A stretch of 64,000 nucleotides of DNA from Glaciimonas sp. CA11.2 (GTDB lineage: Bacteria > Pseudomonadota > Gammaproteobacteria > Burkholderiales > Burkholderiaceae_D): contig NZ_JAVIWL010000001.1 in the NCBI RefSeq assembly GCF_034314045.1, forward strand, positions 62,001-126,000, written 5' to 3'. Numbering within the stretch: the first letter of the stretch is position 1; each line of letters begins with the position of its first letter. Under the pieces are notes generated by a model. The model saw only the letters and a list, made by a program, of their open reading frames with translations, was not told where the DNA came from and did not search any database. Positions 7,226 to 46,023 of the stretch are shown here, one piece after another. Position numbers and translations under genes: made by a program.

Positions 7226-9340
7226 ATGCAGCCGCTGATTCCTTCTTTTCAACTGCCGTCGGTGTCAGTTATTATTCCTGTTCGAAATGGCAAAGACTAT
7301 ATTCAGGAAGCGATCGATAGCGTGACCTGCCAAGTTTGGGGCGATGTCGAAATTCTGGTGATTGACGATGGCTCGGACGATTTCGCTTATGAAACGCTAT
7401 GCGATCAGGATCCCCGCATTCGTGTCATTCGTCTGGATGGTCAAGGGGTGTCGAGTGCGCGGAATGCCGGGATGAAACTTGCAAAAGGAAAGTATTTTGC
7501 ATTTCTCGATGCTGACGATATTTGGTTTCCTGGCAAGTTGGCAGCACAAATCAACCACTTCGAGCGTCACCCCGAAGTCGGTGTTGTCTTTGGCGAATTC
7601 ATCCGCTGGCAGTGTGATCAAAGCGGCGTATTTACTCCAGCAGAAACACTTTCTTCAAATTGTTCAACGTTGAGGGGCATCGACCCGGTACGGTCAGGCT
7701 GGCTGTATACCCGACTATTAGGCGGCTTGCTTGTGGGAATGAATACAGCGGTAATTCGCCAAGATATTTACCGCCAGATTGGTGGCTTTAACGAGACCAT
7801 GCGCATCGGAGAAGATTATGAATTCTGGCTGCGTGCTTCTCAAGTTGCCGAGATGCATTCTCTTGCCGGACCGGTGGCCTTGTACCGCATACATTCTGCA
7901 AGCGCCATGGGTCGGCTTGTCCCAGACAACCATTTGGCTAGCCTTTTGGAAACGGCGCGCGCACGTTGGGGCCTGTCCAATCCTGACGGCTCGCAACTAT
8001 CCAAGCGGGAATTTAATCTGCGAGTCGCCATGACGCATTTTAGCCACGGCTATTCCCATTATTGGCGTGGCGACCCGGACATCGCTCGCACATCGTTCCT
8101 GAAAGCGTTTACCGGTGGTGCGCACAGGACCAAATCTCTCGTGTATTGCGCGCTTGCTGGCTTCAAATCCATAAAGAGCGGGAACGCTGACAAACAGCGT
8201 CCAGCGCCCCTACAACAGTCCAGTCTCTCGGGGATAGAAGCAAGTCCAATCAAAAGTATTTCCACCAAATCAGCGGCCAAAGCCAAGGCTCAAACTGAAA
8301 AGCCCGATAACCGCAACGGCGAGATGCCAATAGCGATGGGGACGCCTCTTTGGGCACGCATGGTATCTACCATAATATGCGGTGGACTAACCGGAAGCCC
8401 TGATCACGCCTTAACGATTTTCACCTTCCACAAGGTACCAGGCGAATCCGATACCGGATACCAGGGTGAATTTTCACTGCGTGACTTTCAAAGCCTGATC
8501 GCTATTCTGTTAGAAAATTTCAACATACTGCCCTTGGCCGAGGGCATCGAACGTCTCCAGCGCAAAGATCTCCCGCGCTTTGCTGCAGCAATCACCTTCG
8601 ATGACGGTTATCCAAACTGGCTATCCGGCGTGGTCCCTGTTTTAGAAAAAAGCGCCATTCCGGCGACCTTCTTTATATCGACTTGCCAACTAGAGGGTCG
8701 GGCGCTCTGGTTCGAGCGGCTTTATAGTATTTTGAGATTAACCGAAACAGATCGCACCCCATTAATTGCACCTTTAATGGCACACGGCTTATATTTGGAT
8801 CATAAAATGATCCAGGACGCCGATAATATCCTTAAGGCAATCAAATACCTACCAACTATCCAACGCGATAACGTCATTTCCTCCTGCGAGGCCGCGCTAA
8901 ACCTCAAGCCAAATTATCCGCTGTTTACTACTCATGATTTGAAAGCACTGCAATCAAAGGGATTTGCCATCGGCGCCCACACCGTCAACCATCCCATTCT
9001 TGCATGTTGCACCGATGCAGACGCCCGCATCGAAATCGTACGCTCAAAGGAGATGCTGGAGGACGTCCTACGAGAACCGGTCAATCTTTTCTCATATCCG
9101 AATGGCGTTCCCGGTCGTGATATCAAGCCGAGCCATGTGCGCTTAGTGCAAGCGGCGAGATTTAAAGGTGCGGTGACGACGGCCTTAGGTGCAGCTTCGA
9201 ATCACACCCCCATATTCCAGCTACCAAGATTTGACCCTTGGGCCAGAACGCCGCGTCGATTACTTATTCAGTATTTGATGACGTTGAATAGGCCATTCCC
9301 AATCATTGAGGAGACTCAGGATGCGCTGATGGTCGAATAA
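7226..9340 (+). CDS. Glycosyltransferase family 2 - polysaccharide deacetylase fusion protein
   Basis: A two-domain protein of about 704 residues. The N-terminal half is a GT-A glycosyltransferase of family 2: VSVIIPVRNGKDYIQEAI, EILVIDDGSDD, the DxD-type FLDADDIWFPGK, and GEDYEFWLR. A linker rich in Lys, Ala, Ser and Pro (roughly residues 330-370) leads to a NodB-type deacetylase domain with FTFHKV, AITFDDGY (catalytic/metal Asp pair) and GAHTVNHP (metal-binding His-x3-His). The frame starts at GTG 7187, but GGAG at 7213-7216 before the ATG at 7226 favours the later start. No signal peptide or membrane segment is evident, so both activities probably sit in the cytoplasm. It may add a HexNAc and deacetylate it on the lipid-linked intermediate. 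Confidence 0.88.
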   Translation: MQPLIPSFQLPSVSVIIPVRNGKDYIQEAIDSVTCQVWGDVEILVIDDGSDDFAYETLCDQDPRIRVIRLDGQGVSSARNAGMKLAKGKYFAFLDADDIWFPGKLAAQINHFERHPEVGVVFGEFIRWQCDQSGVFTPAETLSSNCSTLRGIDPVRSGWLYTRLLGGLLVGMNTAVIRQDIYRQIGGFNETMRIGEDYEFWLRASQVAEMHSLAGPVALYRIHSASAMGRLVPDNHLASLLETARARWGLSNPDGSQLSKREFNLRVAMTHFSHGYSHYWRGDPDIARTSFLKAFTGGAHRTKSLVYCALAGFKSIKSGNADKQRPAPLQQSSLSGIEASPIKSISTKSAAKAKAQTEKPDNRNGEMPIAMGTPLWARMVSTIICGGLTGSPDHALTIFTFHKVPGESDTGYQGEFSLRDFQSLIAILLENFNILPLAEGIERLQRKDLPRFAAAITFDDGYPNWLSGVVPVLEKSAIPATFFISTCQLEGRALWFERLYSILRLTETDRTPLIAPLMAHGLYLDHKMIQDADNILKAIKYLPTIQRDNVISSCEAALNLKPNYPLFTTHDLKALQSKGFAIGAHTVNHPILACCTDADARIEIVRSKEMLEDVLREPVNLFSYPNGVPGRDIKPSHVRLVQAARFKGAVTTALGAASNHTPIFQLPRFDPWARTPRRLLIQYLMTLNRPFPIIEETQDALMVE

Positions 9341-45357: not shown

Positions 45358-45385
45358 TTGCACTTAGGGAAATCTCCGTTATGGT
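45358..45385 (+). promoter_or_regulatory. Candidate sigma-70 promoter for a small RNA
   Basis: TTGCAC at 45358-45363, a 16-base spacer, and TATGGT at 45380-45385. This places transcription initiation near 45392, about 70 bases before an intrinsic terminator. Motif call by eye only. Confidence 0.45.
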
Positions 45386-45391
45386 TTGGCT

Positions 45392-45465
45392 GTCCTCGAG
45401 AAAAAGGGGATCGGGCTTGAGAACCTGCCATCCATAGCGCACAAACGGCGCAAAGCCGTTTTTTT
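45392..45465 (+). ncRNA. Candidate ~75-nt antisense-type small RNA (C4-like layout)
   Basis: Between the promoter-like site and the terminator there is no coding need, yet bases 45417-45438 are complementary at 19 of 22 positions to 45531-45552, located downstream in the leader of the small gene at 45703. The terminator loop also contains GGCGCAA (45447-45453), which can pair with TTGCGCC at 45483-45489. A short terminated RNA pairing at two places with its own downstream leader is the layout of the phage P1/P7 C4 antisense RNA. No similarity search was possible, so the identity is inference. Confidence 0.45.
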
Positions 45466-45552
45466 ACGTGCGTCTGCCTTTGTTGCGCCTTCATTGGGCG
45501 GCATCGGTGGGAGCCTTCGGGCTGCCGGTGGCTATGGATGCCGGTTTCTCAA
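45417..45552. repeat. Imperfect 22-nt inverted repeat with a third competing copy
   Basis: Left arm 45417-45438 and right arm 45531-45552 match at 19 of 22 positions. The right-arm end TTCTCAA (45546-45552) can instead pair with a second GCTTGAGAAC copy at 45573-45582, the first being at 45415-45424. So two mutually exclusive pairings are possible. Confidence 0.65.
45443..45465 (+). terminator. Intrinsic terminator of the candidate small RNA
   Basis: AAACGGC at 45443-45449, loop GCAAA, GCCGTTT at 45455-45461, then further T residues to 45465. It has a compact stem with a T-run, oriented to stop plus-strand transcription. Confidence 0.75.
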
Positions 45553-45702
45553 CCTGCCTTTGCTGCCCACCCGCTTGAGAACGGGTCGCAGTGTAATCGA
45601 CACCTTTAGAAATCACACTATGCCAATTACCACGACGCCTATTCACACCAACTTATACAACATTAGTCGCTTTTACAGCCAAACCAGCACGGTGGACCAC
45701 TC

Positions 45703-46023
45703 ATGAACACACCACCACCATCACCATCCAACCAACCAGAATTTCCAGGAGCATTCCATCAATCATTTTCGTGGCTACTTTTGGAACACAAACATAATGA
45801 GCGCGAGCAGTTTTATGCCATGACGGTAGATGGCTGCGAAGGCATCAAAACATGCCTCGATATAGTCCATTTGAGTAATTCGGATAGAAATACCGATACC
45901 GCCCCAACACTGGATATTGTTGCGACGGAGCGCTTGCTGCGTCTGGCACTGATGTCATCTCAACTGCTGGCGGACATGGCTGCGCGTCGTATTGATCGGC
46001 TTGATGACAGAACCAGCAGGTAA
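45703..46023 (+). CDS. Small hypothetical protein downstream of the RNA leader
   Basis: 106 residues, no membrane segment or signal peptide. The N-terminus is Pro/Ser/Asn-rich (MNTPPPSPSNQPEFP), followed by FHQSFSWLLLEHKHNEREQ and a helical C-terminal half with ATERLLRLALMSSQLLADMAARR. I do not recognise the family with certainty. Helical L-x-x-L-A-x-x-S/Q-x-L-L tails are seen in small proteobacterial families such as DUF3077/DUF6124, a loose resemblance only. The ATG overlaps (ATGA) the stop of a long leader frame from 45386. That leader frame contains LENLPSIAHKRRKAVFLRAS and is probably open because of the structured RNA, as in Ash/Icd-like phage loci. Confidence 0.6.
   Translation: MNTPPPSPSNQPEFPGAFHQSFSWLLLEHKHNEREQFYAMTVDGCEGIKTCLDIVHLSNSDRNTDTAPTLDIVATERLLRLALMSSQLLADMAARRIDRLDDRTSR

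Follow-up and report, generated by a model that had tools for sequence, protein, structure and literature searches.

The window (the whole stretch of 64,000 nucleotides analysed here) carries at positions 45490-45574 what is, by sequence and predicted fold, an RNA of the C4 family in a new setting. C4 is known as a phage immunity switch; here the copies are many and chromosomal, their likely targets are visible, and each copy addresses itself in front of a small gene. The best explanation, which we regard as probable, is that each cassette silences itself through a code of its own, in most cases with translational coupling.

Anatomy of the window locus

The elements follow one another in the order promoter, target/decoy RNA (b1, a1), terminator, C4 (loops a' and b'), b2, leader peptide and gene:

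45358..45385, + strand: promoter-like pair, TTGCAC (45358-45363) and TATGGT (45380-45385), 16-nt spacer
45392..45466 (approx.), + strand: short terminated RNA, IsrK / c4-a1b1-like (both matches below cut-off), C4 target and presumed decoy
45417..45423, + strand: b1 word TTGAGAA, complement of C4 loop b'
45429..45438, + strand: a1 word CATCCATAGC, complementary to 10 bases of loop a'
45443..45466, + strand: intrinsic terminator-like hairpin (45443-45461) and T tail, from a terminator scan
45490..45574, + strand: C4 antisense RNA (RF01695), matching the full-length model
45531..45540, + strand: pairing stretch of loop a', GCTATGGATG, 10-base match to a1
45546..45552, + strand: pairing stretch of loop b', TTCTCAA (the code of the window copy), matching b1 and b2
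45575..45581, + strand: b2, second target word TTGAGAA, inside GCTTGAGAAC (45573-45582), complement of loop b'
45620..45706, + strand: leader peptide ORF of 28 codons with a weak-looking ribosome site, its stop overlapping the start of the 106-aa gene
45703..46023, + strand: gene of the 106-aa protein, F1 family (33-member alignment), ATGA overlap with the leader stop

C4 was the sole Rfam match at curated thresholds in the 64-kb window (52.8 bits against a cut-off of 45; E 2.6e-7), and this value, together with the copy-specific loop-target matches presented below, makes the arrangement more than a chance one. The C4 segment folded at -40.7 kcal/mol (z -2.57 vs. shuffles); folding of the short RNA (45392-45466) was no improvement on its shuffles (z -0.60). 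In a permissive Rfam search, isrK (RF01394) aligned with 45392-45465 at 39 bits against a cut-off of 50, which indicates an analogous position only, and c4-a1b1 (RF03163) aligned with 45379-45431 at 21.4 bits against 46.7. The preliminary description of this locus had suggested kinship with C4, which the model score bore out, but had taken the short terminated RNA of about 75 bases for the C4-like antisense. This was wrong: a C4 at 45386-45466 was ruled out, since the model aligns with the next segment and the part preceding it resembles isrK or c4-a1b1. The element positions first read were real and the RNA roles were swapped, the decoy having been mistaken for the antisense.

The 22-nt complementarity reported at that time was recovered, with 19/22 positions pairing by eye between 45417-45438 and 45531-45552; its arms set GCTATGGATG against CATCCATAGC and TTCTCAA against TTGAGAA. 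The further copy of the word at 45573-45582 was likewise present, and loop b' of the window copy is complementary to both b1 and b2 on its own transcript, two word copies being able to compete for one partner. The long frame 45386-45706 contains the likely leader, and the overlap of the small-gene ATG (45703) with the end of the leader frame was found in the form ATGA. As to the Ash/Icd-like genes, cited at first for their similar leader frames, neither the leader frames nor the 106-aa protein matched any Pfam, PHROG or NCBIfam family, the one exception being a leader frame that hit DUF713 at E 0.25. Pairing of a' at the leader ribosome-site region reached at best 4 bp in the window copy, that is, it was lost, and the site before 45620 looked weak. 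The window copy retains b1, a1 and b2; because the ribosome-site pairing is lost, its own control may be partial.

The six ORFs adjoining the cassette encode a histidine kinase, a sugar transferase, an L-PSP (RidA-like) protein, a gamma-glutamyltransferase and two TRAP transporter parts. No P1/P7-like setting, with a phage or prophage and a downstream ant gene, was seen among these six, in agreement with the phage-free location first assumed. The DNA of the window leader gave only two matches in phages, at chance level. Three plasmid records matched it weakly, the best at E 4e-4 with 47 percent of the query covered. The best plasmid match lay at 8082-8207 of NZ_CP071829.1, a Burkholderia anthina plasmid, where no feature is annotated.

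Cassettes and genes in the genus

The possibility of a single-locus curiosity was ruled out by whole-genome searches. The organism's own genome (G000, 5.50 Mb) contained 25 C4 matches at E <=10, 23 at E <=1.2e-5 and 22 above the cut-off, and the five genomes of the genus, own included, held 61 copies (23 in G000, 9 in G001, 2 in G002, 1 in G003, and 26 in G004). Downstream genes were assigned to families F1, F2 or F3 by comparison with three seed proteins; such a gene followed 56/61 copies and was absent after 5/61. G000 and G004 together presented an F1 or F3 gene downstream of 46/49 cassettes, corresponding to 18 F1, 3 F3 and 2 without either in G000, and to 21 F1, 4 F3 and 1 without in G004, a tally in which three C4 pairs share one F1 gene each and one such pair shares an F3 gene. 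F2 genes followed eight of the copies in G001 (one without) and one of the two in G002 (the other without), and the copy of G003 preceded a weak F1. The link between the RNA element and the 106-residue gene, as it had been put forward, was rated likely.

Measured from the C4 start, homology between cassettes mostly covered about -141 to about +530, a span running from the promoter-like pair to around the end of the gene. A mobile element was considered for the cassette and tentatively set aside. The promoter-like pair and the hairpin of the window both lay where they had first been read. A strict sigma-70 scan called no promoter at the window leader, although -10-like words occurred at the equivalent place in 16/23 copies of G000 and 22/26 of G004. 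The terminator hairpin is weak taken alone (1 found vs. 1.2 expected in shuffles); a T-run between target words and C4 was present in 18/23 and 18/26 copies, respectively. In the 49 C4 sequences of both genomes, 1085 of 1118 stem pair cells were standard and 15 of 23 pairs showed changes on both sides. ACC in the 3' tail of C4 (51/61 copies of the genus) and GG at the start of the 5' stem (60/61) would mimic the acceptor end of a tRNA, the only hint of cleavage by RNase P.

Coupling geometry was widespread. The 40 F1 hits included fragments and three genes shared between C4 copies; in 28/40, a leader of 20-63 codons opened at the first ATG past C4 and its TGA overlapped the F1 ATG, whereas a simple overlap was absent in the remaining 12/40. 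By comparison, 4/7 F3 hits started 128-132 nt from the C4 start, i.e., at the C4-controlled site itself.

An F1 profile built from 33 proteins detected 22 places in G000 and 25 in G004, partly fragments. Seven of them had no strong C4 (2278766, 3358314, and 4699168 in G000; 694806, 1334115, 1956118, and 4917095 in G004; L161-L167), and when these seven stretches were scanned, no C4 appeared at E <=1; one more F1 fragment lies at 5242180, beyond the seven. Weak isrK or c4-a1b1 matches were found in 5/7 of them. Two very weak C4 matches of G000 (E 3.5 and 4.3) stood directly before two of the seven genes and may be decayed leaders.

Around the other 22 copies of the own genome, 20 ORFs picked by hand from 44 listed neighbours of at least 200 aa were scanned; 18 matched Pfam at 1e-10, none of them in a phage structural family, and the 20 comprised one transposase and one HTH/IrrE-like protein. 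In a 9-kb stretch of G001, the L-PSP/ggt region was homologous to the window only from 46148 on; the cassette was not seen there, and this region is not a clean empty site.

Searches of the phage and plasmid collections returned no relative of the 106-aa protein, nor did the F1 profile have one in IMG/VR viral contigs. A search of PDB folds returned nothing for F1 at E <=0.001, and a PDB sequence search gave a best E of 0.3. A first scan of genome contigs detected no F1 relatives, and a second, alignment-based scan yielded a single one, in Massilia rubra (L239; 33 percent identity), with no C4 in the 3.25 kb around it. The F1 model was a two-helix hairpin (pLDDT 73.6, pTM 0.45). The F1 gene of L050 (G000 1796908) opens with a long run of 10-base repeats encoding P-T-Q-P-N-like residues.

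Copy-specific codes within and beyond the genus

The variable part of loop b' consists of the five bases before AA, which formed 14 different codes in the 23 copies of G000 and 13 in the 26 of G004. The 7-base b' core was sought as complement in the upstream (b1) and downstream (b2) stretches of its own copy, as compared to those of differently coded copies. In G000, b1 matched in 20/23 own copies vs. 3/482 with other codes, and b2 in 17/23 vs. 3/482; the corresponding values were 23/26 vs. 8/608 and 21/26 vs. 0/608 in G004, and 8/9 vs. 1/68 and 8/9 vs. 0/68 in G001. Beyond the genus, G274 reached 14/14 vs. 0/166 for b1 and 5/14 vs. 0/166 for b2, and G107 5/9 vs. 1/58 and 0/9 vs. 0/58. In 10,000 within-genome shuffles the observed matches were never attained, except for G107 (upstream, three shuffles attained them; downstream, there were no matches). 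As read from these complementarities, the code of each lock fits the copy to which it belongs and almost never a different one.

Loop a' behaved similarly at the ribosome-site region of G000, with a mean helix score of 18.5 in own copies vs. 12.9 in others, and helices of at least 18 points in 16/23 own vs. 52/506 other combinations. The own pairing ranked first in only 5/23 copies, because a' loops recur between copies. In G107 no such signal was obtained (10.9 own vs. 11.4 others), and ribosome-site matches were 0/9. Conservation or covariation of the paired arms, proposed beforehand as a check, stood in most lineages in the form of copy-specific loop-target matches, and failed in G107 and, for b2, in G274; not every lineage keeps all sites. 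The 14 G274 loci (L141-L154) seemingly keep the first target and drop the second. The nine C4 copies of G107 (L155-L160, L168-L170) are accompanied by yet another small downstream frame. Within any of five Burkholderiaceae genomes no two copies shared both loops (edit distance <=1 in a'). Selection against such sharing was considered and was not significant; as only about 0.5 such pairs are expected in each large set, their absence is no evidence alone.

In the GTDB family of the window, C4 was found in 64 of 294 genomes at E 0.001, most of these having one to three copies; outside the own genus there were one to four per genome, except for G274 (at least 14), G107 (9) and G196 (5). An alignment of 14 C4-linked proteins (12 from G274, with G291 and G031 contributing one apiece) was related to F1 with a profile comparison probability of 99.4 (E 4.5e-21). 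Class-wide, 24/369 genomes contained C4, with up to 11 candidates scored per genome.

A considerably higher abundance was obtained in a genus that we call Pseudomonas-like because PrrF RNA, which we take to be a Pseudomonas marker, occurs at two of its loci, and because one of its DUF6124 proteins shares 68 percent identity with a counterpart in a Pseudomonas phage record derived from P. fluorescens. There, 54 of 59 genomes carried C4, 25 of them with at least 20 copies, the maximum being 54. In three complete genomes, 26/32, 34/43, and 27/29 DUF6124 hits (total 87/104) were preceded by a C4 of the same strand at a distance below 600 nt, whereas none of 200 random placements per genome gave more than 1. 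In the same genomes 16/42, 8/42, and 9/36 C4 copies were not followed by DUF6124; in G550, inspection by eye placed DUF3077-like or other small frames after some of them. The DUF6124 frames of that genome usually start 132-142 nt from the C4 start.

The exact code test in G550, covering the 28 of 36 C4 with an AA core, gave 27/28 and 26/28 own matches vs. 2/692 and 0/692 with other codes. A score test on all 36 exceeded 2000 shuffles at all four sites, at a1 narrowly (15.5 vs. 15.3), and loop a' also matched the ribosome-site region of its own copy. Five DUF3077 loci were found in two genomes; three had C4 at 85-88 bits and c4-a1b1 above its cut-off. The other two (L184, L185), weak DUF3077 matches, lie by PrrF RNA (158 bits) and have no C4.

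The DUF6124 model displayed two long C-terminal helices and a shorter preceding one (pLDDT 71.7, pTM 0.43), and the protein matched a single phage entry, where it lies at the record's edge, and nothing in plasmids. A sequence relationship between F1 and DUF6124 was unsupported, with a profile comparison probability of 2.1 percent, only the outline of two long helices being common. A full-text search of open-licence PMC papers returned no paper for DUF6124; the linkage to C4 gives this family a regulatory context.

Proposed mechanism, alternatives and known systems

C4 structure, cassette architecture, copy-specific loop-target agreement, coupling geometry and the non-phage neighbours of the sample were shown directly, whereas transcription, processing, repression, titration and insulation of the cassettes are inferred from copy-specific complementarity and precedent. 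A single promoter would drive a leader ending mostly at the intrinsic terminator, which would yield a short IsrK-like RNA with b1 and a1; read-through would produce C4 and the message for a small, probably two-helix protein. C4 would be excised, probably by RNase P, and in the F1 type its loops would base-pair at b2 and at the leader peptide's ribosome site and block translation, that of F1 following the leader by coupling through the ATGA overlap. In most F3 cassettes and in those with DUF6124, C4 would pair at the ribosome site of the gene itself. Since the same words are present on the short RNA, which would titrate C4, the proportion of terminated to read-through transcripts would set the switch. 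Loop and targets changing together, each cassette would have its own code, and the many cassettes of a genome would largely not silence one another.

Several facts count against this explanation. The short RNA falls below the isrK and c4-a1b1 cut-offs, and there are F1 places without strong C4, in addition to the Massilia rubra relative. C4 copies not followed by an F1-F3 gene and F1 hits lacking simple overlap point in the same direction, as do the lost ribosome-site pairing of the window copy and the target sites missing in G274 and G107. Furthermore, the authors of the IsrK study attribute activation to refolding of the long RNA and not to titration of C4, as set out in the relevant passages of their paper (PMC4825925). 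In that system, from the Salmonella prophage Gifsy-1, Hershko-Shalev et al. (2016, PMC4825925) show that the short IsrK acts in trans to activate a leader and the gene coupled to it.

According to the same description, IsrK-orf45-anrP shares with the window a short terminated RNA, a read-through RNA and a leader ORF coupled to a gene, along with a stable RNA processed from the downstream part, which its authors, in the passages concerned, do not interpret as C4; it differs in having a prophage antirepressor gene, and the window segment stays below the isrK cut-off. For B. cenocepacia, a differential RNA-seq study assigns isrK (81 nt, with terminator) and C4 (90 nt) to a single transcriptional unit (PMC4603805). 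The P1/P7 C4 resembles the window RNA in its fold, in having two pairing loops, in a target carried by its own transcript and in a coding region downstream; unlike P1/P7, the locus has no ant gene or phage found beside it, small proteins lie downstream, and each genome carries many differently coded copies (P1/P7 details partly after PMC5320573 and PMC12197685). Weinberg et al. (2010, PMC2864571) list C4 and c4-a1b1 among motifs that occur in proteobacteria and phages. A. baumannii possesses 21 C4-like sRNAs, apparently processed from longer transcripts (Weiss et al. 2016, PMC5320573). These Group 1 RNAs, for which we rely on that paper only, lie in one genome and have variable loops; their targets, phage or host RNAs, are left open in the account given there, in contrast with the cassettes described here, where targets lie on the own transcript and a gene family follows. 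Among the matches listed, none of the open-licence PMC titles on C4, isrK or DUF3077 describes copy-specific codes or a linked gene family.

The alternative that survives best, although we consider it unlikely, is that the cassettes are toxin-antitoxin-like units of a type I-like kind, in which C4 prevents a harmful small protein from being made. Many copies with an antisense RNA each would fit, as would the halt of Salmonella growth at high IsrK levels through the activated genes, reported in PMC4825925; however, the F1 and DUF6124 models, of low to middling confidence, are soluble-looking helical hairpins and not short membrane peptides, and matches to defence families were weak only (E 0.027 and 0.012).

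Rather improbable, in our judgement, is an action of C4 on transcription like that of the P4 CI RNA, in which pairing with b1/b2 would promote early termination of the leader instead of blocking the ribosome. Satellite phage P4 places one antisense segment between two target copies (seqA-CI RNA-seqC, as described in PMC4825925), the same order of target, antisense and target as here, and a terminator-like hairpin does lie between b1/a1 and C4; complete retention of b1 with frequent loss of b2 in G274 would also favour action on the first target. In contrast, the match of loop a' to the own ribosome-site region in G000 and G550 and the ATGA coupling kept in most F1 hits point to translation, and P4 differs from the window in being a satellite-phage immunity system acting by termination.

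We hold it doubtful that the repertoire of coded locks serves as a phage sensor, in which an incoming phage that uses C4 control would make RNAs with b1/a1-type words and, if these matched a lock, would soak up its C4 and release the protein. If this were true, phages with matching words could themselves be silenced by chromosomal C4 RNAs, and codes would diversify under phage pressure, not merely to avoid cross-silencing. Finally, inactive relics of phage immunity regions are very improbable: C4 was first known in phages (PMC5320573), most C4-bearing genomes of the family have few copies, and one site is gone from the window copy and from some of the others, but no phage structural family appeared among the hand-picked neighbours, the 106-aa protein and its profile were without relatives in the phage, plasmid and viral collections searched, and copy-specific loop-target matches would decay in relics.

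With self-silencing cassettes as the preferred explanation, single genomes offer many natural, probably orthogonal antisense pairs, and the separation of paralogous antisense RNAs becomes a directly testable question. At one place of G550 (740100-742400, L253), adjoining C4 cassettes share both loops, one of them having a shorter DUF6124 frame; from its sequence, the pair looks like a recent tandem duplication.
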